The position numbers were made by a program, and so were the translations under genes. 20,128 nt of DNA, taken from a virus. Below are positions 3,304-20,128 of this stretch, in pieces. Every line of letters begins with the position of its first letter. The first letter of the stretch is position 1. The notes under the pieces were generated by a model. The model saw only the letters and a list, made by a program, of their open reading frames with translations, was not told the DNA's origin and made no database searches. The stretch is taken from IMG/VR virus record IMGVR_UViG_3300009163_000223, positions 1 through 20,128 of that record. One strand, written 5' to 3'.

Positions 3304-3861
3304 TTATATATCTTTTCTTGCTTCGTATTGATAGTCAAGATAGTTGCATTTAAAGCCAAGAGAGAAACTTTGGAATTGTGGATTGTTAGCTGTGTAGCTA
3401 AAAGAGATCTCAGAAAAAGATGTGAATATTACCTCCTTAAAAGTGAGAGACACAATTACATTTCCTTCGCTGTCCATGATTCTAACCGGTAAATCCTGGA
3501 TAAAAATCTGGGGATTTCCAAAATTTAAAAAATCTAAAACAGTGTCTAGCATTATAAAATAATTAATAAATCCATCTGTTTCTTTAAATCCTATGGTGAA
3601 ATCCTTTGAGAATAAATCCTGTATAGGTGTTGAACTTTTATAGTTGGCTTTTTTTCCAAGATATCTAACTTGTTCAACAGAATCAATAGACAAGCCAGGA
3701 ATGTTTATAGACTGAATAGTACTATTTACGTATTGCTGTACATTGTCAAAAGGTATCGGCTGTTTTTTTATATAAGCCTCGTATTTACCGGTAACCCTTT
3801 CACTAAAAAAACCCTTAGGAAAATTAAAATAAAAGCTGTTTAATTTTGGATTTATAAGCAT
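3304..3861 (-). CDS. Tail-tube-like protein (T4 gp19 family fold, tentative)
   Basis: The 185-residue protein resembles the tail tube subunit of contractile-tailed phages (T4 gp19, 163 residues). Visible family traits are an N-I-P-G-L motif near residues 53-57 (the lPG turn of tube proteins), a strand near D-F-T-I-G-F-K, and a helix around 99-112. Then comes a C-terminal module: F-K-E-V-I-F, the turn F-T-S-F-S-E-I-S-F-S-Y, and a final strand F-Q-S-F-S-L-G-F-K-C-N-Y. The last part lines up by eye with the end of gp19 (GLWP.nVGEIqLdwdsNNEiqtFeVtFalDY). The baseplate tube proteins gp48 and gp54 share the fold, so it could be a tube initiator rather than the main tube protein. It starts 15 bases after the Hint-containing virion gene. 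A sheath gene, which precedes gp19 in T4, is not seen next to it. Confidence 0.55.
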   Translation of the reverse strand: MLINPKLNSFYFNFPKGFFSERVTGKYEAYIKKQPIPFDNVQQYVNSTIQSINIPGLSIDSVEQVRYLGKKANYKSSTPIQDLFSKDFTIGFKETDGFINYFIMLDTVLDFLNFGNPQIFIQDLPVRIMDSEGNVIVSLTFKEVIFTSFSEISFSYTANNPQFQSFSLGFKCNYLDYQYEARKDI

Positions 3862-3876
3862 CCTTTGATATTTTTT

Positions 3877-6507
3877 TTAAGCCGTATTAAATCCAGATCC
3901 GGTAGTGTCATCACCTTCTCCAATATATGATCTTCTAGTTTGTGGACGTGTGCTTGCTGGTCTATCGTTATTAGGTGGCTCTGGTGCAACTTTATTGTGA
4001 ACAAGAATTCCGTTTGCGAAGTAACAGTGATTACCTGAAACTTCAAAATTGTATGTCAAGACATCTTCATCAGTATTAATGATTTCTATATTGTCAACAG
4101 TTACTTCTATATTCTCTCCGCTATCCGAATTCATTAGAATATCACCAACACATATAGCTTGACTTTCTATTCCATGAATTTCAAAAGTACTTTCTGGTTT
4201 ATATGAAACCCAGCATTTTTTATTAGAGCTCCAATACGGGTGAGTAAGAGAACTTGTTATTTCCGTTTGATCAGACAAAGTTAATTTGATAAGCGTATCA
4301 TGGAAAACATTTATCAGACTAAGGACATTTCCAGGTTCAAATACATTTTCCAATAGATTAAAGGATCTGATGGTGTCGCCAATGCACACTTCTTCTATGG
4401 GTATAATAGACCCGTCCCATAGTGTTATTAAGGTTCCTGCAACAAAGCAACCTCCTCCACTAGGAGCAGCAGGAGGAACTGATTTAATTATCGGTTTCTT
4501 GGGTCTTATGATTACAATTTCATCCAGTATATTTATAACAGGTCCTGTTGGTCCTGTTGCTGCCGGGATAACTGCTGGTCCTGTAGCAGATGGGATTGGT
4601 TCAGGTTGAAGGATCTGGGTTATCTCCCCCTCCTTTTTCCAATAACCCCAGTAAACAACCGATGCAGGAAGACTAGAATTCACAGGAACGTTGTTTGTTG
4701 TAGTTATCGCACTTGATAAGATATCTGTTGTTCTTTGAGGATTACCAGAAATAGAGTCAGTATTCTGTGCAATCCCTATTAAATTGGTTCCAGTTGCTCC
4801 TACTGGTGTTTGACCCCCGTTAACGATAAAAAATCTTCTATCTGTGAAAGATACTATTTTTACTGAAGTAGACTCATCCACCTTGAACGCAAGTTCGCCA
4901 ACACTAGATCTTGCAATAGTTGGATCTAATAAAGCTGGTATGTAAATTTTATTACCCTGGTCATCAAGAAAAGACATATTATAATTTCCAGAGGTACTTA
5001 AATCAATAGAGGCTGGATTCCCATCTAATCCCTGCTTTAAAAATTGAAACTTGTAGTAGTTATCAAAAGGTGAAATACTGATGGTAAGATTCCCGCTAGA
5101 TAAAGCTGTAGTTGATGAAGTTGGGTTTGAAATTGTAGAGCTAGCATTATCAGTTAGCACACCAGCCTGAAAAACTAGATTCTTAAATACCGCGGAGATT
5201 TGATACTGCTGTATAAAAACATTAGTAAATTTATAAATCTCCCTTGGCGGGGGAGCAACAAATCCGCCAAGCTTAATTTGTGGTTGGTTGTAAACCCGAT
5301 TGTAAATTTTTTGTACTTGTGGAAAATTGCTTAGCTGTATTGGGGTTATAGTTAATCCCCATTCAGCGGGATTATTTGATGAATAAGTAGATATCCTAGT
5401 AATCCTGGATTGATCCACCGCATTAACTAGAGACATTGTATATCTCAAAAAGAATGTTGCAGCATAAGCTGCATTTTTAACTATTGGTCTATAATAGTTT
5501 GGCGTATCGTAGGCGGTGGTTTGAATTTGTTCAAATCTAGAAGTCTCTATTATAGCAGCTCCGATTTGTTCTAGTACTTCTATCTGATGATTTATATAAT
5601 ACTGATTTCCAATAGAATTTTGGAATAATATAAAATCCTCTATAAATCCCTCGTTATCGGTAGCAAAATACTCAAAAAACTGTCCTTGATCTGACTCTTG
5701 TATGATTGCACCAATGTTTGCAAATTGGTCTTCCTCCTCTAAAGATAGAGTCCCTATTTTAATACAATCATATCTTGGATAACCAGCAAAGCTTTGCGTG
5801 CTTTGAACTTGCCAGACTGACACTACCATAGGAGCACCATAGAAAAATCCATTTCCACTTTGGCTTAAAAGACCACCAAGGGATTGAGATATGAAATTAG
5901 AAGGTGTATTTATGAACTTGTTGTTCATATCTTGCAAACTCGGGATCTTTATCTGAACATATTTGTCATAAATATTAGAACCAATTGTTACCGGATTTGG
6001 ATTAAGAATATACGTTTGATCTGTTCCCTTCTGTATAAAAATTTGTGACATAGTCACAAAATTCAAATTAGAATCCTGAAAATCAATACCCACGACTATA
6101 CCATCGATATTCTGTAGGTTATAACCAGCTCTTACATGATATCTCACAGTGTCATAAACAACAGAGAGATTGCTAGGAAAAACAACAGGTAGACTTGATG
6201 TGTTGGTAAGCTCATCTGAATAATCATTAAAGGGTATGATTAAATTAGAATCTAATGTTACAAAAGAGTTTACTGCTATTTTAACAACACTGTTTAATGT
6301 TGTATTATTAGTTATAGAGGCGTCTGCTGTAGGATTAAAATTTTGAACAGAATCGCTTTGATATCCATTTATTAGTTTATTATATCCAACGGTCTGTCCT
6401 CCAGAATTGGTAAAGTAGCTCTCTGGCGTAGGCTGATCAGCATACATATACTCCATTAATAAATATGGAGTGAGCTGAACAAATTTTGATGTTGATGTGT
6501 AAGCCAT
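3877..6507 (-). CDS. Large virion protein with C-terminal intein-like Hint domain
   Basis: The 876-residue protein falls into four parts. Residues 1-635 are beta-rich, Asn/Ser/Thr/Gln-rich and typical of a tail or baseplate component, but I cannot name the family. Residues about 636-686 are a Pro/Gly linker with short collagen-like T-G-P-T-G-P pieces and a G-G-G end. Residues 687-838 are a Hint (hedgehog/intein) domain, described separately. Residues 839-876 are a short polar tail. The start ATG lies 20 bases after the 79-residue gene, without a well-placed Shine-Dalgarno. The gene sits between the fibre cluster and a tail-tube-like gene, which supports a structural role. Self-cleavage or ester/amide transfer at the Hint domain could detach or attach parts during virion assembly; this is inference. 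Confidence 0.8.
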   Translation of the reverse strand: MAYTSTSKFVQLTPYLLMEYMYADQPTPESYFTNSGGQTVGYNKLINGYQSDSVQNFNPTADASITNNTTLNSVVKIAVNSFVTLDSNLIIPFNDYSDELTNTSSLPVVFPSNLSVVYDTVRYHVRAGYNLQNIDGIVVGIDFQDSNLNFVTMSQIFIQKGTDQTYILNPNPVTIGSNIYDKYVQIKIPSLQDMNNKFINTPSNFISQSLGGLLSQSGNGFFYGAPMVVSVWQVQSTQSFAGYPRYDCIKIGTLSLEEEDQFANIGAIIQESDQGQFFEYFATDNEGFIEDFILFQNSIGNQYYINHQIEVLEQIGAAIIETSRFEQIQTTAYDTPNYYRPIVKNAAYAATFFLRYTMSLVNAVDQSRITRISTYSSNNPAEWGLTITPIQLSNFPQVQKIYNRVYNQPQIKLGGFVAPPPREIYKFTNVFIQQYQISAVFKNLVFQAGVLTDNASSTISNPTSSTTALSSGNLTISISPFDNYYKFQFLKQGLDGNPASIDLSTSGNYNMSFLDDQGNKIYIPALLDPTIARSSVGELAFKVDESTSVKIVSFTDRRFFIVNGGQTPVGATGTNLIGIAQNTDSISGNPQRTTDILSSAITTTNNVPVNSSLPASVVYWGYWKKEGEITQILQPEPIPSATGPAVIPAATGPTGPVINILDEIVIIRPKKPIIKSVPPAAPSGGGCFVAGTLITLWDGSIIPIEEVCIGDTIRSFNLLENVFEPGNVLSLINVFHDTLIKLTLSDQTEITSSLTHPYWSSNKKCWVSYKPESTFEIHGIESQAICVGDILMNSDSGENIEVTVDNIEIINTDEDVLTYNFEVSGNHCYFANGILVHNKVAPEPPNNDRPASTRPQTRRSYIGEGDDTTGSGFNTA
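3994..4449 (-). other. Hint (intein-like autoprocessing) domain, residues 687-838 of the 876-residue protein
   Basis: The block begins C687-F-V-A-G-T-L-I, then W-D-G-S, I-E-E-V and G-D-T-I: the N-terminal splicing block A of inteins and bacterial intein-like domains. A block-B-like motif, S753-L-T-H756-P-Y-W, supplies the conserved His, with Ser in place of the usual Thr three residues before it. The C-terminal block reads Y-N-F-E-V-S-G-N-H, F-A-N-G-I-L-V-H837-N838, with the penultimate His and terminal Asn of inteins. The domain is 152 residues long and has no room for a homing endonuclease. The residue after N838 is K839, not Cys, Ser or Thr, so ordinary protein splicing is not expected; N- and/or C-terminal cleavage as in bacterial intein-like (BIL) domains is more likely. 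Confidence 0.88.
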
Positions 6508-6785: not shown

Positions 6786-8603
6786 TTATTCAGGTGTAAA
6801 GGTTCCGGTAAAAACAATCGGCCCGCTTAAAAATCCTACAAATCTAGGTGGGAGTGTTGTTGCTCTAGGAGGTGGTGTGGTTGAACCAACCGCATATTTG
6901 TTTGTTATGTTTATAAAACCTGCGCTACCAGTGCACGTTTTCCAAAGAATTATAGGATTAGCATTGGTGCTACTTGTGATATAAGAATAGGTAAGATCTA
7001 TATAGCTGCAGCCAAACCCGGTATAAGCACCTGCTGTTGTATCTCTAGAGATCGGAAAATTCATAAACATCTTCACAACCACTGGGGTTGTACTAGAAGA
7101 AGATGTGAAATGGTAATAATCCCATACAATACCAAAGATCTTAGAGTCAGAATTAGGGGGAATATGTGATGATGCAACTGGTGAAATGTCGTTTATAAAA
7201 ATACGGTATGTGTTATTCTGATCTCTATAAAAAAGCGGAGGAGTAGGTTCAAGAATTGTTGGAACGTATAAATAAACTGAAGGTCCGGTACTTCCAGGAG
7301 TTACTATAATATAATTGGTGTCCCAATTTTGAATTGGGGTTATATCCAAAACAGGGCTAATACTCTGTCTAGGTGTTGAAAGATTGCTACCAGAAAAAAG
7401 TATAGGTGACCCGTAAGAAACACAGCTTTGGGTTGAGTAATTACTGCTTCGGATTTCTCTAAATTTTTGAACCTTGTAAAAATAAGGTCCAGCAGTTCCC
7501 CCAGGGGTTAATCCACCAGTAGATCCGAAAAATGTTTGAGAGTATTGCCCAGTAAGATTGCCGCTTGGCATTGCTCCAAAAATAGTTGCAGAATTAGAAT
7601 CTAAAAATTGAAACTGGTATAGACTCGAATTTGTTGTTTGTATATCAAGTCCAAAAGATGTCCCGGTGGATACAGGATATTTATCTGTGCTAAAAGCAAA
7701 TCCAGCTGAAGAACTTGTGATTCTAAAAGGGGCTATAGATGTCAGAGAAGATGATCCCAATCTAAAATTTCTGGAGGATACTGAGAAAAAGTTTCCAGAT
7801 CCTACAGTAGTATTAGAATTGAAAAAAAAGTCACCTGGGTGATTAATATAAAAACCGGAAGGTGCTGAAATATTCATGGAATTACCGGTTAACAAAGTTC
7901 TAGAAGTAGCAGAATCTATGGTAATACCAAGTAGTGAATTGATGGTAAAATTATAAGAGGATAGAAATTTAAGTTTCAAAGAAGACCCTGCAGATGACCA
8001 ATAAAAAGAAGGAGCTCCTGAAACAACATTTGTTGATTTAACAAAAGAAAAAATAGGTATGCTTGTTTGGTCATCAGTAACTACAAGTAGCTTACTATTA
8101 TTTGGATTTGAATTCGAAGCGCTTGGGGTAGCGTCACTAATTACTAAATTTGTCCCGCTCTCGTTATACGGGGATAATATACCAGTATTGGAAAGACCTA
8201 TAGCAAAACGATCCGTAACACCAGCTGGTCCAGATACACCGGAGTAAGACCTGAAAAAGTTTGATGAGAACAAGCTATATCCAGTGTAATTCCAAGATCC
8301 GGTTGCACTATACTCTTTTATCTGATAATCGCTTGTTGATTGATCGACCCATTTATCATACTCTATAGAGGATGCTGAAGATGGCTGGATGATACTGGTA
8401 ACCCATCGGTTTGCTCTTATCCCATTTGAGCCAATAAATCCTTTTTTTCCAGCTGGTCCAGGTATCCCTGTTGGACCTCTTTCCCCTTGATGACCGTTCG
8501 GACCAACAGCAAATGAAAGTATCTGATCAAAATTATAATTGATCTTGCCACCGATCTCTGTTTTATCGTCCCCCTGAAAAATATATTTAGTGTTAAAATG
8601 CAT
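6786..8603 (-). CDS. Tail fibre protein 3 with collagen-like segment (605 residues)
   Basis: Probable trimeric receptor-binding fibre, third of three paralogs. Residues 1-33 are an anchor with the shared motif K-I-N-Y-N-F-D-Q-I-L. Residues 34-66 are Gly-X-Y triplets, in which the last Gly has become A64. A conserved R-W then leads into a Y-D-K-W-V-D region. The rest is Ser/Thr/Asn-rich beta structure typical of fibre shafts. The C-terminal third differs from the other two: it has an F-G-I-V-W-D-Y-Y segment, an S-Y-I-D-L-T-Y-S-Y-I segment, and a Pro/Thr-rich stretch (TTPPPRATTLPP) before the end. The tip specificity has therefore probably been replaced. The ATG lies only 3 bases after the stop of the previous fibre gene (TAAAAAATG), which implies co-transcription. 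Confidence 0.8.
   Translation of the reverse strand: MHFNTKYIFQGDDKTEIGGKINYNFDQILSFAVGPNGHQGERGPTGIPGPAGKKGFIGSNGIRANRWVTSIIQPSSASSIEYDKWVDQSTSDYQIKEYSATGSWNYTGYSLFSSNFFRSYSGVSGPAGVTDRFAIGLSNTGILSPYNESGTNLVISDATPSASNSNPNNSKLLVVTDDQTSIPIFSFVKSTNVVSGAPSFYWSSAGSSLKLKFLSSYNFTINSLLGITIDSATSRTLLTGNSMNISAPSGFYINHPGDFFFNSNTTVGSGNFFSVSSRNFRLGSSSLTSIAPFRITSSSAGFAFSTDKYPVSTGTSFGLDIQTTNSSLYQFQFLDSNSATIFGAMPSGNLTGQYSQTFFGSTGGLTPGGTAGPYFYKVQKFREIRSSNYSTQSCVSYGSPILFSGSNLSTPRQSISPVLDITPIQNWDTNYIIVTPGSTGPSVYLYVPTILEPTPPLFYRDQNNTYRIFINDISPVASSHIPPNSDSKIFGIVWDYYHFTSSSSTTPVVVKMFMNFPISRDTTAGAYTGFGCSYIDLTYSYITSSTNANPIILWKTCTGSAGFINITNKYAVGSTTPPPRATTLPPRFVGFLSGPIVFTGTFTPE
8406..8504 (-). repeat. Collagen-like Gly-X-Y segment, residues 34-66 of fibre 3
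   Basis: Ten consecutive Gly-X-Y triplets (G34 to G61) plus an eleventh whose Gly is replaced by A64, ending immediately before W67. They include G-P-T, G-I-P and G-P-A triplets. Such segments form collagen-type triple helices in trimeric phage fibres. Confidence 0.85.
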
Positions 8604-8606
8604 TTT

Positions 8607-10325
8607 TTAAAAAGGTGTTGAATTATATGTATAAAGGGTTCCGCATTTAGTTGTATCGTCCCAAGTAGAATATCCTCCCAGATTTCCCCCGTAAGCAGAG
8701 TAATAAACTTTAAACCATCTTGACGCTGATGTGCTTGCTGGGTTTGAGATATTCATTATAGTAAACTCCACCTGAGTTGCTCCATATGCAATATTTCCTG
8801 ACAAATCTACAAATTGTCCATTCCCCGCTGTCGAACCAAATGTTCCGGTAGGAGCTGAAGTTTGGTTTCCGGTAGATAATCCAAGAAATCTAAAATATCT
8901 ATCCGGGTGAGCCATTTTAACTCTAACGGTTAAACATTCATTTTCATTTAAAAGAGAAAGCCATCCACCATTGCTATTTAAAGGGGATGCAGCATATGTA
9001 AAAGATGAAGGGGTCCACAATGAAATACCTATCTGATCAGTAGGTCCATATTTATCCGGATCTATAACAACATCTATTCCATTATTTAGAACAGCAGAAC
9101 TAGAAGAAGCAGCTGCAGTTAAAGCTATGCTAGGTAAAATAGAAACCCAGTAAACGGATGCGGTAGCTCCTATATTTACGGGAGAAGTAGAGGAAAGTGT
9201 AACTGTTTTTGAGCTCTCAAAAGAATTTACTGATCTGTTTAGCAAAACATCTCCATTCCCAAAAACATTAAAAATAGACTTCGAAGATGCTGAATCAGTA
9301 ACGTCTGTTGATCTTAAAAGAAAAGATTCTCTTGATGATCCAATATTAGATTTGTGTCTAATATTGGATGTTTGTGAATTCGTTGTTTGGATAAGCAGAG
9401 GTGCATTTGCTCCTGTTGCGCTGGTCTGGAAAAAACTACTGCTTAATGGAATATAGTAATTTGTATCTAAATTAAAATTAGTATTAGAAAAATAAGCAGT
9501 TCCACCAAAACTAAAGTATATGTTACCCGCTGCGGTATTTACTGCAAGGGGTAAAGATGAATTTAAATTTATATTAAATCCAGAGGTATTAAATTTAACA
9601 AAAGAGGTTCTCGAGTTAAGATTAAGATCAGAAGTCCCTACATTAATCTCAAGTCCGTCCTGTGAGCTTAATCCAAGTCCATATTGACCAGCAGTTGCTC
9701 CTGGACTAAGGAAATAAAAATTAGGATTTTTTGACGATATCGAAGAGGATTGATTAATTGTTTTACCAAATTCAATCAATCTTTTAGATGGACTAATTAC
9801 ATTATTAACTGAAATAACCATCTTAGAATACTGTGGATTGTACGAGTAAATGCTACTCACAGGGTTGAAAGTGGAATCATTCAAAACAATACTATAATTC
9901 TCAGGATTTGTTGGTGTTATGAAATACCCGTATTTAGAGCTTACCCCGGAAGATGTTTGTAGAGGTCCAGATATTCTAAATAAATCCTGAGAGGATATAC
10001 TTGAATCTGTTATTTCCCATCCATTTGTTGTGAATGTGTAGATTCTATTAGATGAGTTCACATTCAGCCAATAGTCCCCAGATATAGATCCAGTAGCAGA
10101 AGGCTGTGTTGCACCAACATTCCAAAGGGTGCCTCGGATTCCAGGGTCTCCAAAAGAACCGATTGGACCTGTGATCCCCGCTGGACCCTGAGGTCCTTGA
10201 GGGCCAACTTTACCGTAAGGTCCTCCTCCAAACCCCAAAATATTATTGAAGTTTTGATTTATTTTGTCTATAAAAACTTTTTGTGAGTCACCGTTTTCAA
10301 TTCTCACAAGTTTTAAGTCAGGCAT
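8607..10325 (-). CDS. Tail fibre protein 2 with collagen-like segment (572 residues)
   Basis: Probable trimeric receptor-binding fibre, second of three paralogs. The layout is an N-terminal anchor with K-I-N-Q-N-F-N-N-I-L (residues 21-30), eleven Gly-X-Y triplets (35-67), then W68 and a G-D-Y-W...I-Y-T-F...G-W region shared with fibre 1. A long Ser/Asn-rich beta shaft follows, including N-V-F-G-N-G-D-V-L-L-N. The C-terminal domain resembles that of fibre 1: a Y-W-V-S-I-L-P strand, I-G-I-S, R-Y-F-R-F-L-G-L-S-T-G, V-E-F-T-I and K-V-Y-Y-S-A-Y...G-G-Y. It starts with ATG at 10323-10325, 30 bases after the stop of fibre 1, in a gap that contains a short direct repeat. It probably attaches through its conserved N-terminus to the same baseplate site as its paralogs. 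Confidence 0.82.
   Translation of the reverse strand: MPDLKLVRIENGDSQKVFIDKINQNFNNILGFGGGPYGKVGPQGPQGPAGITGPIGSFGDPGIRGTLWNVGATQPSATGSISGDYWLNVNSSNRIYTFTTNGWEITDSSISSQDLFRISGPLQTSSGVSSKYGYFITPTNPENYSIVLNDSTFNPVSSIYSYNPQYSKMVISVNNVISPSKRLIEFGKTINQSSSISSKNPNFYFLSPGATAGQYGLGLSSQDGLEINVGTSDLNLNSRTSFVKFNTSGFNINLNSSLPLAVNTAAGNIYFSFGGTAYFSNTNFNLDTNYYIPLSSSFFQTSATGANAPLLIQTTNSQTSNIRHKSNIGSSRESFLLRSTDVTDSASSKSIFNVFGNGDVLLNRSVNSFESSKTVTLSSTSPVNIGATASVYWVSILPSIALTAAASSSSAVLNNGIDVVIDPDKYGPTDQIGISLWTPSSFTYAASPLNSNGGWLSLLNENECLTVRVKMAHPDRYFRFLGLSTGNQTSAPTGTFGSTAGNGQFVDLSGNIAYGATQVEFTIMNISNPASTSASRWFKVYYSAYGGNLGGYSTWDDTTKCGTLYTYNSTPF
10125..10223 (-). repeat. Collagen-like Gly-X-Y segment, residues 35-67 of fibre 2
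   Basis: Eleven uninterrupted Gly-X-Y triplets from G35 to G65, rich in Pro and Gln (G-P-Q-G-P-Q-G-P-A in the middle), ending directly before W68. Length and placement are identical to the segment in fibre 1. Confidence 0.9.
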
Positions 10326-10332
10326 CGTTAGA

Positions 10333-10350
10333 ACTAGATTTTACTAGATT
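10333..10350. repeat. Short tandem direct repeat between fibre genes 1 and 2
   Basis: ACTAGATT occurs at 10333-10340 and again at 10343-10350 (plus strand), one helical turn apart, within the 30-base gap upstream of the fibre 2 ATG. It could be an operator or promoter element or simply AT-rich noise. No inverted repeat with a T-tract is present, so it is not a terminator. Confidence 0.3.
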
Positions 10351-10355
10351 ATATA

Positions 10356-11948
10356 TCAAAAAGTGAAATACCCCCCGGAACATCCATACCCTCCTGTTCC
10401 CCAATTGTACGCTTTGTAATAAACAGTCAATTTTGATCCAGTAACCCCCTTAGCTATAGTAAAATCAATCGCTTGGGCTCTGAAAGGGAAAGTTGCCTGG
10501 GTACTAATAGAACCAGTTGTACCGTAACCAATATACCTAACCCCGTAAGAATTGCTTGCAGTAACACCAGAGGAGTTATTCCAGTACCCACCAATCGAAT
10601 TATTTGCAACAAAAAGATTTACATCTATGGATTCACCGTTTTGCAGATAAGGCCTTATGGTACCAGTAGATCCCCATCCATATGAGTCTGTACCAAAACA
10701 AATTCCAACATCCTGAGAGGTTGTAGTCCCCTCCGGAGAAATTATAATAGTATTGCCCGAAGTTAACGGGGTATATGGAGATGGACTACCTGGGACAGAA
10801 AGGAAATACCATCTTAAATTGGAAGTGCTTGTAGCTCCGATTGAATTATTAGGATATGCGATTCCATCAGTTACTTTATTAATCTTCAGTTTACCTTTTG
10901 TGTTAAGATATAACTGGGTATCGATATTATTCTCTAGCTTTAGGTGATAAACAGAATTGGACAAAGTATTATAGGTATCACCAGATCTTTGACTTTTAAA
11001 CCCGGTGCTTCCTGCAGAGTAAACATAAACCATGGGTATCTGTGATTCTATATAAGCTGTCATACCTACTGATTTAGAGAAATAACCAGATCCACCAGTA
11101 ATACCAAAATGTGTGCTTGAAAAATATAAATCCCCAGAGGGAGCAACAAATTGAAATCCCCCAGTTGAAAAAATACCAGAGTTTGCGCCTGAAGATGAAT
11201 CTATGGTAAAATTAGAGGAAGAATTTATGTTAGATACTCCAAAATTAGATTCAAATCCTCCGCTTGCTCCAATATTAAAACTTCCTCCTGGTGATTCTAA
11301 GACTAGTGAGCTGTCACCCGAGGTAAAATTAAACCATCTGAATATGGGATGCAAGGAGTAATCGGATATCTGACCATTTTCTAAATTGCTTCTAGAAAAT
11401 TCTAAGAGCGGGTATGGATCTATTAAAGGATTAGTAGACACGAGAAATTTAGAAAGAGATTCAGATATTATTTGAGACTCTGGGGTAACGTCAGAGACAT
11501 TGAATGTATAGTTATTTGGAAACAGCTGGTTTTCAACTATAGCTTGTCCGGTCCCTCCTATCGAAGGAGAAAATGTGCTCAAAAGTGAGCTAAAAACAGC
11601 ACCGGATGGGTTAAGATTATACGTTGTATCAGCCCACCCGCTTTGTGTAAAAATGTAGATCTCCCCGTTAATTGAATCTATCCAATAGTCACCCTCTATT
11701 ATAACTTCGCCAGATCCTCCAAGAGGTGCGGGGTTGTTCACAAACCATCTAGTTCCACGAGATCCGGTAACTCCAACTTCTCCTCTCAGTCCATTTTCAC
11801 CTATTGCTCCTTGAGCACCGGTAGGACCGGTTAAACCCTGGCTGCCTCCATGAAACTCTACAACTTCATCAAAATTATTATTGATCTTACTAATAATTTC
11901 TGGTTGATTGTCTGAATAATTTAAAGATAAAATATTTGTATTTGGCAT
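10356..11948 (-). CDS. Tail fibre protein 1 with collagen-like segment (530 residues)
   Basis: Probable trimeric receptor-binding fibre, first transcribed of three paralogs. Residues 21-30 carry the anchor motif K-I-N-N-N-F-D-E-V-V. Residues 35-67 are eleven Gly-X-Y triplets. W68 and a G-D-Y-W-I-D...I-Y-I-F...G-W region follow. The shaft is Ser/Gly/Asn-rich beta structure. The tip resembles fibre 2: a W-Y-F-L-S-V-P strand, V-G-I-C-F-G, R-Y-I-G-Y-G-T-T-G, I-D-F-T-I-A and T-V-Y-Y-K-A-Y...G-G-Y-G, ending in aromatic residues. The ATG follows the stop of the 1827-codon gene after only 2 bases (TAAAAATG), so the giant protein and the fibres are surely on one transcript and possibly translationally coupled. 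This suggests that the giant protein is the baseplate partner to which the fibres attach; that is inference. Confidence 0.82.
   Translation of the reverse strand: MPNTNILSLNYSDNQPEIISKINNNFDEVVEFHGGSQGLTGPTGAQGAIGENGLRGEVGVTGSRGTRWFVNNPAPLGGSGEVIIEGDYWIDSINGEIYIFTQSGWADTTYNLNPSGAVFSSLLSTFSPSIGGTGQAIVENQLFPNNYTFNVSDVTPESQIISESLSKFLVSTNPLIDPYPLLEFSRSNLENGQISDYSLHPIFRWFNFTSGDSSLVLESPGGSFNIGASGGFESNFGVSNINSSSNFTIDSSSGANSGIFSTGGFQFVAPSGDLYFSSTHFGITGGSGYFSKSVGMTAYIESQIPMVYVYSAGSTGFKSQRSGDTYNTLSNSVYHLKLENNIDTQLYLNTKGKLKINKVTDGIAYPNNSIGATSTSNLRWYFLSVPGSPSPYTPLTSGNTIIISPEGTTTSQDVGICFGTDSYGWGSTGTIRPYLQNGESIDVNLFVANNSIGGYWNNSSGVTASNSYGVRYIGYGTTGSISTQATFPFRAQAIDFTIAKGVTGSKLTVYYKAYNWGTGGYGCSGGYFTF
11748..11846 (-). 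repeat. Collagen-like Gly-X-Y segment, residues 35-67 of fibre 1
   Basis: Eleven uninterrupted Gly-X-Y triplets from G35 to G65 (including G-L-T-G-P-T-G-A-Q and G-E-V-G-V-T), ending directly before W68. It has fewer Pro residues than the segment in fibre 2 but exactly the same length. Confidence 0.9.
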
Positions 11949-14900: not shown

Positions 14901-17434
14901 TTATAAGAATAATCAGATGACCAAAAATCAAAATCAAATTCTTTAGTATCAAAGAAGGTAAAAACACCAACTCCCGTATTAGATGTCGAGTATATGCTCA
15001 CAGATTTATCTGTTCCTAGATCTACCTCAGCATAATCATTTTTTAGGTTTGCAACAAGTAAGGTCTCGAAATTTTCGAACGAGATAACTTTCTCAGTATC
15101 CGTACTCTTTATTGGAGAATCAACATATCTGGTAATCTGATTAACTTCAACATATCCTTTAACTGTAGGAATAAAATACCCAGGCTGAATTATATTAGAA
15201 TCTGAAAGTGGAAATATGATCCTATTGTTGGGTAAAATGGTACCTCCTCTGAATAGAGAGTTTGAGGTTATTTCTGAGGCATCAACCCCGCAGATTTCAA
15301 CATATCCAGAACTAGAGAATGTGTTGTATGGATTCCAAACAGTACCGCCAGGCTCGGTATTTAAAGACGAAGAAGATGCTGGGATGTTTATATTAGCCTC
15401 GAAATAATTATTATTATACAAGACAACATCGCCTGAGGTATAGCCAGAAATATTTGACCAGGTTCCCTTATAAACCTGTGTGAATGCTGAATAGTTATCA
15501 AAAGCAGTTATAGAGAAATTATCATTACCGAAAGTTCCTGAGCTAGTAACTCTTATTATTGAATAATTCCCGTTTGATCCGGTATCCCATATTATATCAT
15601 CAACATCTTTTAGTACATCAGAGAAAGCTCTAGCAACATCTCCTGTAGTTCCTGTTTCTGCATTGAAATAATAGGAATTACCAGAGGAATAATATGATCC
15701 GCCAACCCATCTCAGTATAGCAGAGAAATCACCGGATCTAACTATATCAAATTTACGTGATCCCTCTTTTTGCGATCCGTTCGGCCAGAATATCTTAAAT
15801 GTTAACGGATTGGGTAAATCGTAATTCTTTAAAAATTTAATATCAATATATGCTTTACCGCTTTCCTTGGTTTTTTCAGCAGACACGGTTCCTATTTTTT
15901 GAATAGGATCGTCATTTCCAGTGAAAGATAGCAGATCAACAAAAGAATTCCCTAAAACGAAAGACCCAGAGGTTGCTCCGCTAGATCCCGTTGCTGTGAA
16001 TTGACCTAGAGAATAGTCATAAGGTCCGTATGTATACTCCGGACCGCTTCCGCCAGCTTGTGTATAAGTCTCAGATCTTTTTAAGGTATAAAAATTATCA
16101 TACTTGTCAGTTACATAAAAAATTTTATTAGAATCATATAGATTAACATTATCAGATCCAGGTAAGAATCCTGATGCATCCTCGTAGAATATTCTGACCC
16201 CAGAGGTAGCAGCAATGACATCTGAGTAATTATTATCATAATAACCTACGTTGTTAATCGAGGGTTGAGGGTAATTTTCATTACCTTGTATATTTCTATA
16301 TTCATAGAAAAAATTTCCATTAAGTCTAAATTTAGCAAAATCATTTCTAGAGACATAAAAACCAAAATACCTGTTAATTGTGAAATTCTCAGACTCGTCA
16401 TCATTGAAAAGAAATTCTAAATTCAAGAGATTAGGACAGATTACTCCATTTCTGGAAAATCCAGAAGTGACATAATCCTCAAAATCTATCATAGGGTCAG
16501 AGCTACTCGAGGAAAGAAATTCAGTAAGTAGTTCTGCTTTTCTAGTGTAAACACCATCAGCATAACTAACACCCTTGAAATAACTATATGAGTTTAATCC
16601 CCAGCTAACTTCGATTGGAGAATTTGAAAATCCTGGATTGTTGAATATCTGTCTAATATATTTTCCAATTTTCGTATTTTCCCTAAGGTCGAAGGTTTTA
16701 ATAACAGAGCAATTAGGGAGAATCTTGTTCTCAAAAGTATATTGAACATCATCAGATAAAGAGATGTATGCAAGCTCATCAAATATTGCAATTTTTCCAG
16801 ATCCACTGATTATTGAATATCCAGTATAATTGGAGTTTCCTATAAAAGTCTCACCTGCAGCATAGAAAACATCAGCACCTGCTGCATTCTTCCCGTAATT
16901 AATCACAAAATTACCGTCGCTGTCAAAATCCTGTATGACTTTATAAACAACACCCGATGATATGTTGGTAGCATTTTGTGAATAGGGATAATTTAGAGGT
17001 CCAGGGGTTTTAAAGATCACAAAAAAATCTGGGATTTCACTTTTTAGCCAAAGTGGGGCAAAGTATCTAAAATCCTCTGTGTAATTCTTATCAGCTAAAA
17101 CATTTGCACCGCTCCCGTAAAAAAAATCATACTGACCTGAAAAATTTTCTGCAGACTGGGTTTCTCCTTTCACACTGGAACTTACTTCAAATACAAGATC
17201 TTTTGAAGTTTGACCTTGATCAAAGAAATTAAACAGATCCTTAGCTAGATTATTCTCCCCCGTTATGTTATATTTTTTAAATCTGGAGTCGCTTAAAGTT
17301 TGGTTTGCGTCTATCGAATTAAACCAGACACCTCCGCTTGAATCTAAAGTAATTTTATAATTACCAGATAATTTAGGATTCGTTCTAGTCAGAGCGAAAG
17401 AAGAATTATAATCAAATAATTTAGATTGAGACAT
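11951..17434 (-). CDS. Giant tail/baseplate structural protein (1827 residues)
   Basis: I cannot assign a named family. The protein is long, beta-rich and dominated by Ser, Gly, Asn, Tyr and Phe, with few Cys and no signal peptide or membrane segment, as is typical of large baseplate or tail-fibre components. The N-terminal 150 residues include an aromatic stretch (F-R-Y-F-A-P-L-W-L-K) and F-F-V-I-F-K. Residues about 655-703 resemble a CBM5/12-type carbohydrate-binding module, listed separately. The C-terminus ends with alternating strands (Y-S-Y-S-L-Q-F-N-F-Y-I). The ATG lies 19 bases after the preceding gene in an A-rich leader (ACAAGAAA). Position between another large structural gene and three fibre genes suggests a baseplate or fibre-attachment role. 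An arrangement with long-tail-fibre proximal proteins is an alternative. Confidence 0.75.
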   Translation of the reverse strand: MSQSKLFDYNSSFALTRTNPKLSGNYKITLDSSGGVWFNSIDANQTLSDSRFKKYNITGENNLAKDLFNFFDQGQTSKDLVFEVSSSVKGETQSAENFSGQYDFFYGSGANVLADKNYTEDFRYFAPLWLKSEIPDFFVIFKTPGPLNYPYSQNATNISSGVVYKVIQDFDSDGNFVINYGKNAAGADVFYAAGETFIGNSNYTGYSIISGSGKIAIFDELAYISLSDDVQYTFENKILPNCSVIKTFDLRENTKIGKYIRQIFNNPGFSNSPIEVSWGLNSYSYFKGVSYADGVYTRKAELLTEFLSSSSSDPMIDFEDYVTSGFSRNGVICPNLLNLEFLFNDDESENFTINRYFGFYVSRNDFAKFRLNGNFFYEYRNIQGNENYPQPSINNVGYYDNNYSDVIAATSGVRIFYEDASGFLPGSDNVNLYDSNKIFYVTDKYDNFYTLKRSETYTQAGGSGPEYTYGPYDYSLGQFTATGSSGATSGSFVLGNSFVDLLSFTGNDDPIQKIGTVSAEKTKESGKAYIDIKFLKNYDLPNPLTFKIFWPNGSQKEGSRKFDIVRSGDFSAILRWVGGSYYSSGNSYYFNAETGTTGDVARAFSDVLKDVDDIIWDTGSNGNYSIIRVTSSGTFGNDNFSITAFDNYSAFTQVYKGTWSNISGYTSGDVVLYNNNYFEANINIPASSSSLNTEPGGTVWNPYNTFSSSGYVEICGVDASEITSNSLFRGGTILPNNRIIFPLSDSNIIQPGYFIPTVKGYVEVNQITRYVDSPIKSTDTEKVISFENFETLLVANLKNDYAEVDLGTDKSVSIYSTSNTGVGVFTFFDTKEFDFDFWSSDYSYNPNPETFRYFQILADTDGVIYPNSPYFVKSGQIVYSGTLYNQGQIFYGATGSTSFQNINPGPDSYPVVFPAQFSDVTFDSSATSYSNIGYYKDFEAFLGFIGIQDLFPGTLKQSASKEQAFELGKLATEYDYLKENYTTSRSNISRIVPYINKWGYSGGLDARGNQYRLNSSPAFSPLNFSPSLERILPDPKYLNHEWFLLEQPPIDFPVEFMNSQKSYLPGKIDLNKLIDADPANSLYTSSYFTVEPQDYSQDYRDLRSYTKELFTPLVYNQASGYYETLFRGVKVVFKKRSSLASSETDSLNRYIQFSRSYEGYNFSAIIRAIPEDSTTIQSPIKYQFIENTQQKFIVFICDLVVKDQRVFEIGYTGGTGGNPILDYTTLYSMSDKTKLTYPLFSGQDFTTIDTIKLSCGLDLSLSSGSYVTTTSSGRINIVENPDYDTDLREEINTFFVENTVGATAGLSPTGLGSFNVPTISSTYPWPIGIGPKFVQFGLISTTSNYTFSIPFATSTPAEVPVGPSSIYKTSPVFQVSGGSKYFSSLLNRVTVSYISKIANARSPYIKYRTFSWDSLNSVTVEKSDDFEVYFESPTRILKPLGTSYSESFEGPQELKGNSVASSYVLRPNQPNLPSTLLRYSGGYEPLFRKVIFFDLDKSDTIFGSGSLIDLSFRNCNFAPNKYYFGVSRNLSYTKVSLGNQILALSSKFPEGAVYPLINQTPIAKKDFNLFSSSWDPGYYERYLNAKDFERVAGTRSMTEYNTFFGSKIMQTPDPVLSYNYITLQISRTSGTTSVEQINNEIFSAIYPVQNISSTNSGTGVGRIGPYLSPVDFNKIDPNIFPSAEVIWQYFPDTLTVSGTLRLDRVLRRQLLNSGVKKEFINNMISDFGVGNPDSIDDDVIDYIEANVVPIYEGNQLNLYVKKNGSETLDVNLLIRGDIYKSDLLTSGYVLDPNFKLTQNSNLIYDFSFQLEKSYSYSLQFNFYITKL
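15326..15472 (-). other. CBM5/12-like carbohydrate-binding segment, residues about 655-703 of the giant protein
   Basis: The pattern W659-x5-Y665-x2-G-D-V-V-x-Y-N-N-N-Y-F-E-A-N, then a P/G stretch and W700, matches the chitin-binding CBM5/12 signature (W...Y..GD.V.Y.g..Y.a......P......W). In other phages this small aromatic module sits in tail proteins and binds cell-surface or extracellular polysaccharide. Assignment is by eye from spacing and aromatic residues only. Confidence 0.6.
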
Positions 17435-17453
17435 TTTCTCTTGTTTATATCAG

Positions 17454-20128
17454 TTACACAAATAGCGATCTTGTTCCGCCTGAGAAATTAGGAGCGACCA
17501 AAGTGTCATTTTGGTATCCGCCACTGACAATAACATCGAAAGAAAAAATATCGCTATTTGCAACTTGTATATCTATTCCTATTTTTTTTGTATAGTTGAT
17601 GTTTGTAAGATTTCCAGATTTTCTCCATCCCCCTATATAGCCAGCTTTATCAACACATCTAAACTGGAATACCATTGGTATATTTATTGCGTTAGTTTCC
17701 CCTCCTAATAAAGTTCTATATGATAAGCTAGTTGTGCCGCTTACTTGTAATAAATCACCAGAGCTTGGTGCTAAAAATAAGTAAGATCCGCATGAAAATT
17801 TCCCGATTAGATATTCATCATTCGAAGAGAATCCAAGTTTATCTGGGTACATGTCATCCTCTCTTGGATCAGTCGAAGCAGAAGGAAAGGATAATGGCAC
17901 TCTAAAAGCCTGCTGAACGTAATTCACATTTAAAGAGGTATCGCCCCAGAATGATTGTGTGTGCCTGAATGGTGCATAAGAAACCCCAGACGATGCAAAA
18001 GGTTTAACTAAATCACCATAGGTTGTGAATGTAGTCGTAGCACCAACCTCTACGAGATATGGATGTCTTTTATCAATACAAAATTCAGAAATAAATCCTC
18101 CCCCTACAGGATCACCACCTGTAACGCCAGTAAAAGTTCCGTTCCAAACGTTAGCAGCTGTTCCTCCAATTACAGAGGAATAGTTAGCATATAATGTTGG
18201 ATCATAAGGGGTAAAGATCGTTCCATTCTGTGGATATACCCCAGAAACACCGAAATTTTGTTGTGTCGAAGACGAAACGCCATCATATGAGTATGTTGAA
18301 GAGTATATTGCAGTAAAATTAGCTGCAAGGTTTTCAACACCAGATGGGGGATTAGGATTATTCAAAAGTATCTGGTTGAATCCCACGTTTTTATATCTAG
18401 GGTAAATGTACTGAGAATATGCATTCTGAGATGCAAACGGAGGAGCCTGTCTAATTTCTTGATTGGATATAACCTGAGGTCTTGTTAATGAGGTAACAGA
18501 AATAGGTCCATCAGAATATCTCAAATTGGTATTATATCCCTGAGGATTATTAGTTCCGATAAAGGTTGGTGCTGCAGTCTGAAGACCTCCAGGTATGGAA
18601 GATGCAAGCTCGAGCGCAGATGCCTCTATATTAACAAGCTGAATGCTGTAAATTACAGAAGCCACTTTACCAGCATCATTTGTTAACGGAGCAGAGAAGA
18701 AGTCAGCATAAAATCCTGCATTCAAGCTGATCGTTGTTCCTCTAGTAGCTTTTACTTTGTTTCCGGACGAATCAACAAGGTAGACTTCAAGAACACCAAC
18801 TACTGCGCTAACACTTGCCTTTAATTGGTTTAGTTGATTTTGTAAATCTACCAGTTTATCGTATAAACTTAAAACAGATCCAGCTGTGGAATAAAATCCA
18901 CTTGATATTCCTACCGCAGTATGATAATAAGTTCTATCTGCAGCAGTGAACTGTTCTGAAAGGTGAGAAGGAAGACCCTGTGCATTCAGATTTGCCTGAA
19001 CCTTTACCACCGCAGAATCCTCGTTATTAGTTTTAATTAATTCTGCAGAACCTGTCACTGTAAGATTATCAGGAAATGAGATAACAACTGAGGTTGAATA
19101 TTCAGAGGTAAGTGGATTATTTGGCCAACCAGCTTCGGATATTGAAGCTATTTGAATTTCTACCTTCTCACCTTTTGTAATAGGTATATCCAATTGGTTT
19201 ATGTTCTGAACATTCGAATCAGCAGTGACCTCCGGTGTCCAAACATAAAATCCAGTATTTGGGTCGTATACTTTTTTACGAATATCCGTTTTATACTCTA
19301 CCCAGTTTGAAAAAGCACCAACTTTTTTAACGTTATCAACGTCAAGATATTCTATCTGTTCTGATGGCTGAGCTGATCCAGAATCAGTAAGATATCTGTA
19401 TCTTACGGAGAATTGAATAACAGCCTGCTCCCCTGTTGCAGGACTTAATTTAGGAGCTGGAATAGCCCAAAACCCGCGGACTCTGTATTTAGGAGGTTCT
19501 AAAACTTGTGGTACATCCTGGGAAAGAGTACTAACTTCATCAACAATAGAGGAATACAAAGCTACTTTCTTTACCCTTTCGTCAATCAAATTACTAAGAT
19601 CAGCCTGAAGGGAATTCGTATTTACACCTATCCGATTATTTGTTTGTGCTAAGCTTCCCTCACTAGATGGGATATCTACAGGACTTATCCCGCTTAATCT
19701 AGAGAGTAGAGACGCAGCTCTTGAATTTTGCTGATTTGATGTTGCAAGCCCTGTGTTGAGCTGGATCTTCGTGTTGTTTATTGCATCATCCAAAGAGTTT
19801 ATTTCACTTTTTAAAGTGCTCTTGACCTGTAATTTATCATTTATTACTTTAACGCTAGTGGATTCAGTTACCTGCTTATTTATTTGAACCACCTTGAAAT
19901 TATCAGGAACAACTAGAGGGACATCAGGAATTAATCCTTGAACTGCTGGAACGGTTTTATCTTTTGCCATTCCTAATAGAATTTTACCAATATCGGAAAC
20001 GTCGCTTAAATAGTATTGCTCAAGGGAAACCACCTCGCCGTCAGGATTTTTAGTTACCAGATCATTCGTCCAAAGTATTACTCCAGTAGACCAGGTTGCT
20101 CCTACTATATTAAAATTATCATCTATCG
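17454..20128 (-). CDS. Large virion protein with coiled coils and FN3-like region (5' end beyond window)
   Basis: The reading frame is open to the right edge, giving 890 visible residues. An in-frame GTG at 20031-20033 is not convincing as the start, because 31 well-formed residues upstream (including N-F-N-I-V-G-A-T-W and V-I-L-W-T-N-D) continue the same protein. Visible residues about 85-190 are heptad-rich (L-K-S-E-I-N-S-L, L-S-N-L-I-D-E-R-V) and predict coiled coil. About 214-352 look like a fibronectin-III-type domain (R-V-R-G-F-W-A-I-P, Q-F-S-V-R-Y-R-Y, V-E-I-Q-I-A-S-I-S-E-A-G-W, ending S-V-V-I-S-F-P). A second short coiled coil (L-V-D-L-Q-N-Q-L-N-Q-L) lies at about 424-440. The rest is beta-rich and aromatic. 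FN3 plus coiled coil is common in tail-tip and baseplate proteins. It is the first visible gene in the structural run, 19 bases before the giant protein gene. Confidence 0.75.
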   Translation of the reverse strand, partial: IDDNFNIVGATWSTGVILWTNDLVTKNPDGEVVSLEQYYLSDVSDIGKILLGMAKDKTVPAVQGLIPDVPLVVPDNFKVVQINKQVTESTSVKVINDKLQVKSTLKSEINSLDDAINNTKIQLNTGLATSNQQNSRAASLLSRLSGISPVDIPSSEGSLAQTNNRIGVNTNSLQADLSNLIDERVKKVALYSSIVDEVSTLSQDVPQVLEPPKYRVRGFWAIPAPKLSPATGEQAVIQFSVRYRYLTDSGSAQPSEQIEYLDVDNVKKVGAFSNWVEYKTDIRKKVYDPNTGFYVWTPEVTADSNVQNINQLDIPITKGEKVEIQIASISEAGWPNNPLTSEYSTSVVISFPDNLTVTGSAELIKTNNEDSAVVKVQANLNAQGLPSHLSEQFTAADRTYYHTAVGISSGFYSTAGSVLSLYDKLVDLQNQLNQLKASVSAVVGVLEVYLVDSSGNKVKATRGTTISLNAGFYADFFSAPLTNDAGKVASVIYSIQLVNIEASALELASSIPGGLQTAAPTFIGTNNPQGYNTNLRYSDGPISVTSLTRPQVISNQEIRQAPPFASQNAYSQYIYPRYKNVGFNQILLNNPNPPSGVENLAANFTAIYSSTYSYDGVSSSTQQNFGVSGVYPQNGTIFTPYDPTLYANYSSVIGGTAANVWNGTFTGVTGGDPVGGGFISEFCIDKRHPYLVEVGATTTFTTYGDLVKPFASSGVSYAPFRHTQSFWGDTSLNVNYVQQAFRVPLSFPSASTDPREDDMYPDKLGFSSNDEYLIGKFSCGSYLFLAPSSGDLLQVSGTTSLSYRTLLGGETNAINIPMVFQFRCVDKAGYIGGWRKSGNLTNINYTKKIGIDIQVANSDIFSFDVIVSGGYQNDTLVAPNFSGGTRSLFV

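Follow-up and report, generated by a model that had tools for sequence, protein, structure and literature searches.

A C-terminal Hint domain with BIL-like features in a presumed phage tail protein

Gene organization of the locus

The window, as the DNA analysed here is called, comprises the 20,128 nucleotides (20 kb) of one viral IMG/VR record. In the direction of transcription, three collagen-like fibre genes are followed by a gene for an 876-amino-acid protein, a tail-tube/baseplate-like gene, and gp32 and primase genes. The features discussed below all lie on the minus strand.

3877..6507, minus: 876-amino-acid presumed tail/fibre protein whose N-terminal ~680 residues form a conserved body common to other IMG/VR loci (from homologues and gene order)
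3994..4449, minus: Hint domain, residues 687-838, C687 to N838 (from phmmer, Pfam, AlphaFold2, Foldseek and TIGR01443)
4447..4449, minus: C687, candidate N-terminal nucleophile (Hint residue 1), directly preceded by SGGG (from the invariance of this Cys)
4240..4242, minus: H756 of SLTHPYW, the block B histidine (His and the next Pro invariant in 46 aligned Hint domains)
3994..3999, minus: H837-N838, the C-terminal block (His invariant and Asn in at least 90% of alignment A3)
3991..3993, minus: K839, the +1 lysine (from K/R conservation at +1/+2)
3880..3993, minus: 38-residue C-terminal extension behind N838 (block-mean pLDDT 47-57)
6786..8603, minus: collagen-like fibre gene, without a Hint domain in the window; its homologues in loci L003, L004, L005 and L025 end in a type-A Hint domain
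3304..3861, minus: downstream tail-tube/baseplate-like gene (phrog_45, tail tube, E=4e-10)

The three collagen-like genes, which lie in a row at 6786-11948, match tail-fibre PHROGs, and their N-terminal parts are alike (GxxGPxGxxGPxG). Homologues of the downstream gene at 3304-3861 occur in Flavobacterium, Tenacibaculum, Prevotella Lak and other large phages, and the one in Flavobacterium phage MaF61 is annotated as a baseplate wedge.

The 876-amino-acid protein is 46-70% identical to 31 homologues. Its N-terminal 690 residues had no match in PHROG, Pfam or PDB, and the structure model of the body is poor (pLDDT 52). Since the body resembles no known virion family, its designation as a tail/fibre protein, and with it a location in the virion, leans on gene order. 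An earlier note on this DNA had called it a tail protein; this agrees with the tail-type neighbourhood, and we retain the term as a presumed identity. The note had also described the Hint domain as lying near the C-terminus, and N838 is followed by just 38 residues. The low model confidence there indicates that this tail is probably disordered, and no Pfam domain was found after N838.

Fold and relatives of the Hint domain

The earlier note had placed an intein-like Hint domain at 3994-4449. These coordinates are exact: on the minus strand, the codon for C687 starts at 4449 and that for N838 ends at 3994. The three blocks C687-F-V-A-G-T, S-L-T-H-P-Y-W and V-H837-N838 are all present within 152 residues, a length that leaves no room for an endonuclease. 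The best phmmer match in PDB, over the full domain, is BIL2 of the Tetrahymena thermophila BUBL1 polyubiquitin locus (6tmm/6y75, E=2e-15), and the second is a Clostridium thermocellum BIL. Pfam searches with the same domain matched the AXH (2e-9), PT-HINT (6e-5) and intein splicing (6e-4) models, and the NCBIfam model intein_Cterm (TIGR01443) scored above its cut-off at residues 818-838. Taken together, such matches are far from what chance would produce. The window domain falls short of the gathering cut-off of PT-HINT (PF07591; 23.8 vs 27.7 bits), which is passed by relatives in L049, L062 and L072; the model itself matches 45 of the 46 aligned type-A Hint domains, type A being the subfamily of the window domain.

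An AlphaFold2 model was built from the alignment of these 46 type-A relatives (alignment A3), which are 28-40% identical to the window domain. It has pLDDT values of at least 90 in 139/205 residues, and block means in the Hint part are mostly 93-98, with one block at 77. Foldseek searches with this model ranked BIL2 at the top (E=1.6e-14, TM 0.87-0.92 depending on the target, rmsd 1.6-1.7), with the C. thermocellum BIL at E=3e-11 and many inteins at 1e-6 to 1e-9. The gp41-1, RecA, DnaB and hedgehog Hint domains come after the two BIL structures. Both the profile and the structure comparisons, proposed in the earlier note as ways of checking the domain, came out in its favour. The model shows the horseshoe fold of the Hint superfamily, and Cys1, the block B His and the terminal His-Asn are all in place. 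The prediction strongly supports a complete Hint domain, free of endonuclease, at residues 687-838.

Several known systems resemble the window domain in part. It shares with BIL2 the predicted fold, a full-length alignment, the block B His region, a KxWxS..P motif, and a short form free of endonuclease. However, the two are 25-27% identical, and BIL2 sits between ubiquitin-like domains whereas the window domain lies between a fibre body and a 38-residue tail. The A-type BIL of C. thermocellum (2lwy) likewise has a Hint fold, an HN end and no intein-kind +1 nucleophile; the window domain differs in its position at the extreme C-terminus of a virion-type gene and in its conserved +1/+2 lysine.

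Cys1 is kept in 46/46 aligned type-A Hint domains. A decayed Hint domain, retained purely for structure or binding in the way that seems to hold for the AXH domains of animals, would account for the fact that the Pfam AXH model matches 42/46 members, and no AXH domain is known to cleave itself. This reading is nevertheless very unlikely, as Cys1, the block B His, the penultimate His and the Asn show little or no variation over very diverged sequences. The same near-invariance, over relatives so distant from the window domain, argues for a functional module.

Gain, loss and exchange of C-terminal Hint domains

The same protein body is encoded by 46 viral IMG/VR loci, including L002, which is the window's own phage (100% identical). 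In 39/46 loci the body protein carries no Hint domain, and most of these homologues end instead in a domain of ~70 residues (LTGSALISALSAQIQGY...). A second Hint subfamily, type B (CPTPDM...SHNK), is found at the C-terminal end of the body protein in six loci (L003, L004, L005, L014, L018 and L043). Types A and B align with an hhalign probability of 97.5% at 17% identity. The window protein lacks the ~70-residue domain and bears the type-A Hint domain at the same point. The relatives closest to it are L005 (72% identical) and L003, which group with it in a clade at 100% bootstrap; in both, the ~70-residue domain is kept and is followed by a type-B Hint domain.

Neighbouring genes show the same variability. 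In L005 and L003, a type-A Hint domain ends the upstream collagen-like fibre gene, whose copy in the window has none. Type A is also present on the fibre gene of L025 and on a neighbouring long gene in the L026/L063 contig. In all, it ends tail-type genes other than that of the body protein in L003, L004, L005, L025 and L063. Type B occurs on two adjoining genes in L014, L018, L043, L137 and L146. From this distribution over neighbouring virion-type genes, we conclude that C-terminal Hint domains have repeatedly been gained, lost and exchanged. Among the body homologues, none was seen in which the body is joined directly to the tail, as at an empty insertion site.

A wider set of viral C-terminal Hint domains

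When viral contigs were scanned with two Hint alignments, 80 and 43 loci were recovered. Hint domains followed by a tail of at most 60 residues were taken as C-terminal and clustered at 70%, yielding 47 domains, all with Cys1. An HN end is present in 40/47, with 1-52 residues behind it; those of L103 and L111 lack it and end in SN|C, which is intein-like. The carriers of the 40 HN-ending domains are mostly tail-type or unidentified proteins. Where an N-terminal partner can be recognized it is mostly a tail fibre, tail protein, virion structural protein, DUF4815 or crAss muzzle protein, with one terminase match and one protease match as exceptions; many partners match nothing. Among 154 pairs of Hint domains with above 60% identity, which are not independent of one another, the median dN/dS is 0.13 and the maximum 0.47. 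These low values indicate that the domains are maintained by purifying selection, a result that holds for the family, the window copy having no close non-identical relative.

At the sensitivity of tblastn, no cultured phage in the collection searched carries the same C-terminal Hint domain. Type B matches nothing among cultured phages, and type A matches only Vibrio phage helicase inteins and a Ruminococcus phage protein with a tail of ~94 residues.

Other arrangements were also encountered. Arrays of 2-4 head-to-tail Hint domains occur within one phage open reading frame (L053-L057, L069 and L079; also L065, L067, L081, L084, L087, L166 and L167), with linkers mostly of 2-8 residues (for example LVHN-IPPK-CFVAGT) and longer ones in the type-B pair of L166/L167. 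In several arrays the first Hint domain lacks Cys1 and the last lacks HN, so not all members need both junctions, which counts against the autoprocessing reading discussed below. Type-B Hint domains are found inside very large proteins (L156-L160, L165 and L168) with ~390-1,120 residues behind them; the example in L157 (L157:919-9198) matches DUF4815/phrog_358. A split Hint domain, its halves ~800 bases apart and with stop codons in the second part, is possibly an interrupted intein (G021, L035 contig, 360719-361966; G014, L021 contig, 17242-18489).

Two observations concern the annotation of these domains. The family phrog_16259 ('DNA helicase'), noted alongside Vibrio phages K389 and K453-K461, matches only the Hint part of several non-helicase phage proteins, and its name can therefore mislabel Hint-bearing virion proteins. 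Matches of phage Hint domains to the AXH model (ataxin-1/HBP1) reach E=2e-21 and cover residues 687-793 in the window. This similarity in sequence suggests that the animal AXH domain may be part of this Hint branch; a paper joining AXH, Hint and intein was not found in the literature searched.

A conserved lysine behind the His-Asn end

Inteins have Cys, Ser or Thr at +1, the position occupied in the window by K839. Among the 40 non-redundant HN-ending C-terminal Hint domains, one has C/S/T at +1. K or R is present at +1 or +2 in 37/40, and the residue is Lys in 36/40; the retrieval patterns do not cover this position, although the type-A model closes with a column in which 4/5 rows have Lys. 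In the rest of the tails, Lys accounts for 5/487 residues (1%), and K plus R for 6.6%. The lysine is mostly at +1 in type A, and in type B at +1 or at +2 behind Ile, Leu, Val or Arg. When domains are grouped by single linkage, it is found in 17/20 clusters at 50% and in 4/5 at 40%; with only five clusters at 40%, the independent events number fewer than 40. Gly at -1 is also frequent (50% of C-terminal Hint domains vs 8% background).

Hint domains from bacterial genomes, gathered with the same query as the viral set, have K/R at +1/+2 in 16/47 and C/S/T at +1 in 15/47. The difference in K/R between viral (37/40) and bacterial-genome (16/47) domains is significant (Fisher p=1e-8). Tails in many of these bacterial-genome matches are ~100 residues long. 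Helicase inteins from the same survey read HN|C. The +1/+2 lysine on C-terminal phage Hint domains is new here.

These junctions bear on whether the domain is a mini-intein, one that would join the 38-residue piece to the body by splicing and apart from that be a neutral or parasitic insert. The Hint fold has all intein blocks, and true mini-inteins of the same sequence group exist in phage helicases (DE|C...HN|CHH in Vibrio phage 268E42.1). Those of Vibrio phages 268E42.1, PS65A.1 and K389 are ~31% identical to the window domain over its whole length, but they are inserted in the helicase DE-HH motif with HN|C (read for 268E42.1) and are canonical inteins. In the window, by contrast, the +1 Cys/Ser/Thr is absent, which closes the canonical splicing route. 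Moreover, no homologue joins the 38-residue tail to the body, the homologues show no empty site but close with a different domain or a different Hint domain, two Hint subfamilies occupy the same C-terminal place, and several relatives have a one-residue tail. We consider the mini-intein reading highly improbable, and a plain intein was dropped as the preferred label in view of the +1 Lys and the lack of an empty site.

The earlier note had preferred an autoprocessing module to a parasitic intein. That preference is strengthened by the fact that the domain breaks into no conserved sequence, by the differing ends of homologues, by the missing +1 C/S/T, and by the recurrence of C-terminal Hint domains on several virion-type genes, with two subfamilies at one place in sister phages. 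Its further proposals, self-cutting and a role in virion maturation, are putative; the conserved +1/+2 lysine and the wider distribution did not figure in it.

Discussion

BIL domains are reported to cleave at either end, with alternative splicing in some A-type domains (PMC7765530, PMC5874633), and classic BILs sit in variable bacterial proteins (PMC7765530). The window domain has the predicted Hint fold, the HN end and no +1 intein nucleophile, and it lies in a variable region where a Hint domain is present, absent or exchanged at the C-terminus. We think it reasonably probable that it is a functional, A-type BIL-like autoprocessing module at the C-terminus of a phage tail/fibre protein. PT-HINT domains are placed just before a toxin domain (PMC3482391) and frequently have Cys/Ser/Thr behind the Hint domain, whereas the phage domains have the +1/+2 Lys and no toxin follows; what lies behind the window domain is the 38-residue low-confidence tail. 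Toxin release was rejected on this ground.

Known Hint chemistry and the conserved residues lead us to predict a thioester at G686-C687 and cyclisation of N838. The fibre body would fold first, and C687 would then attack the Gly-Cys bond before it in an N-S acyl shift, so that the SGGG linker would end in a thioester. In the simplest case, this thioester would be resolved by water or a thiol, with release of the Hint domain and its short tail. Alternatively, an amine such as the +1/+2 lysine might do so and give an amide or isopeptide product. Cyclisation of N838 would free the 38-residue tail. The fibre would thereby lose its C-terminal domain and might be left with a joined C-terminus.

In one special case of the autoprocessing module, the lysine serves as acceptor in splicing or conjugation. 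The thioester would pass to the +1/+2 lysine (in cis) or to a lysine on an adjacent virion or host protein (in trans), leaving an isopeptide-linked fibre end. The placement of lysine at +1/+2 and its scarcity elsewhere in the tails, the Gly at -1, and the closest structure, BIL2, for which ligation by an isopeptide bond at the K epsilon-NH2 is reported (PMC8616854), all point this way. However, the role of the lysine may be no more than to adjust Asn cyclisation or to anchor the C-terminus, and in many type-B domains it stands at +2 behind Ile, Leu, Val or Arg. In six cluster representatives (L065, L066, L067, L074, L081 and L087), HNK are the final residues; joining to a single lysine would have no obvious use, which counts against the autoprocessing module. 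We judge the lysine acceptor unlikely in this form, yet, given the Gly-rich approach and the lysine, the isopeptide route is a serious option, plain cleavage being the simpler one.

Another special case is a cleavable folding or assembly aid, in which cleavage only removes the domain once the fibre is assembled. The Peptidase_S74 tail-spike chaperone offers a functional parallel as a C-terminal, self-removing fibre domain: it has a catalytic Ser/Lys, detaches and helps folding (PMC7824862). The phage Hint domains share this topology and occupy the C-terminal place on collagen-like fibres. However, the S74 domain has other catalytic residues and another fold, the Hint domain is minimal, with no trimerisation or chaperone part, and many homologues manage without it. 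A role of this kind is conceivable, if somewhat doubtful.

The phage papers found treat Hint domains as inteins of enzymes for replication and packaging. An earlier report of the present pattern, whether as Hint, intein or BIL domains, was not found for phage structural proteins in the literature searched, most subscription journals lying outside it. A recurrent, exchangeable C-terminal Hint domain on tail, fibre and muzzle proteins, together with its near-invariant lysine, points to self-processing in tail building or host contact, which is absent from the phage literature found. The family also offers a large natural set of short, endonuclease-free Hint domains that lack the usual nucleophile at +1; BIL chemistry could be studied on them, and they might serve lysine-directed protein joining. 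As a bolder and quite unlikely proposal, a widespread class of tailed-phage Hint domains might pass the acyl group to the lysine directly behind His-Asn, or to a lysine of a partner, and thereby join fibres covalently by an isopeptide bond. If true, the virion would contain its own means of conjugation, ubiquitin-like and ATP-free.
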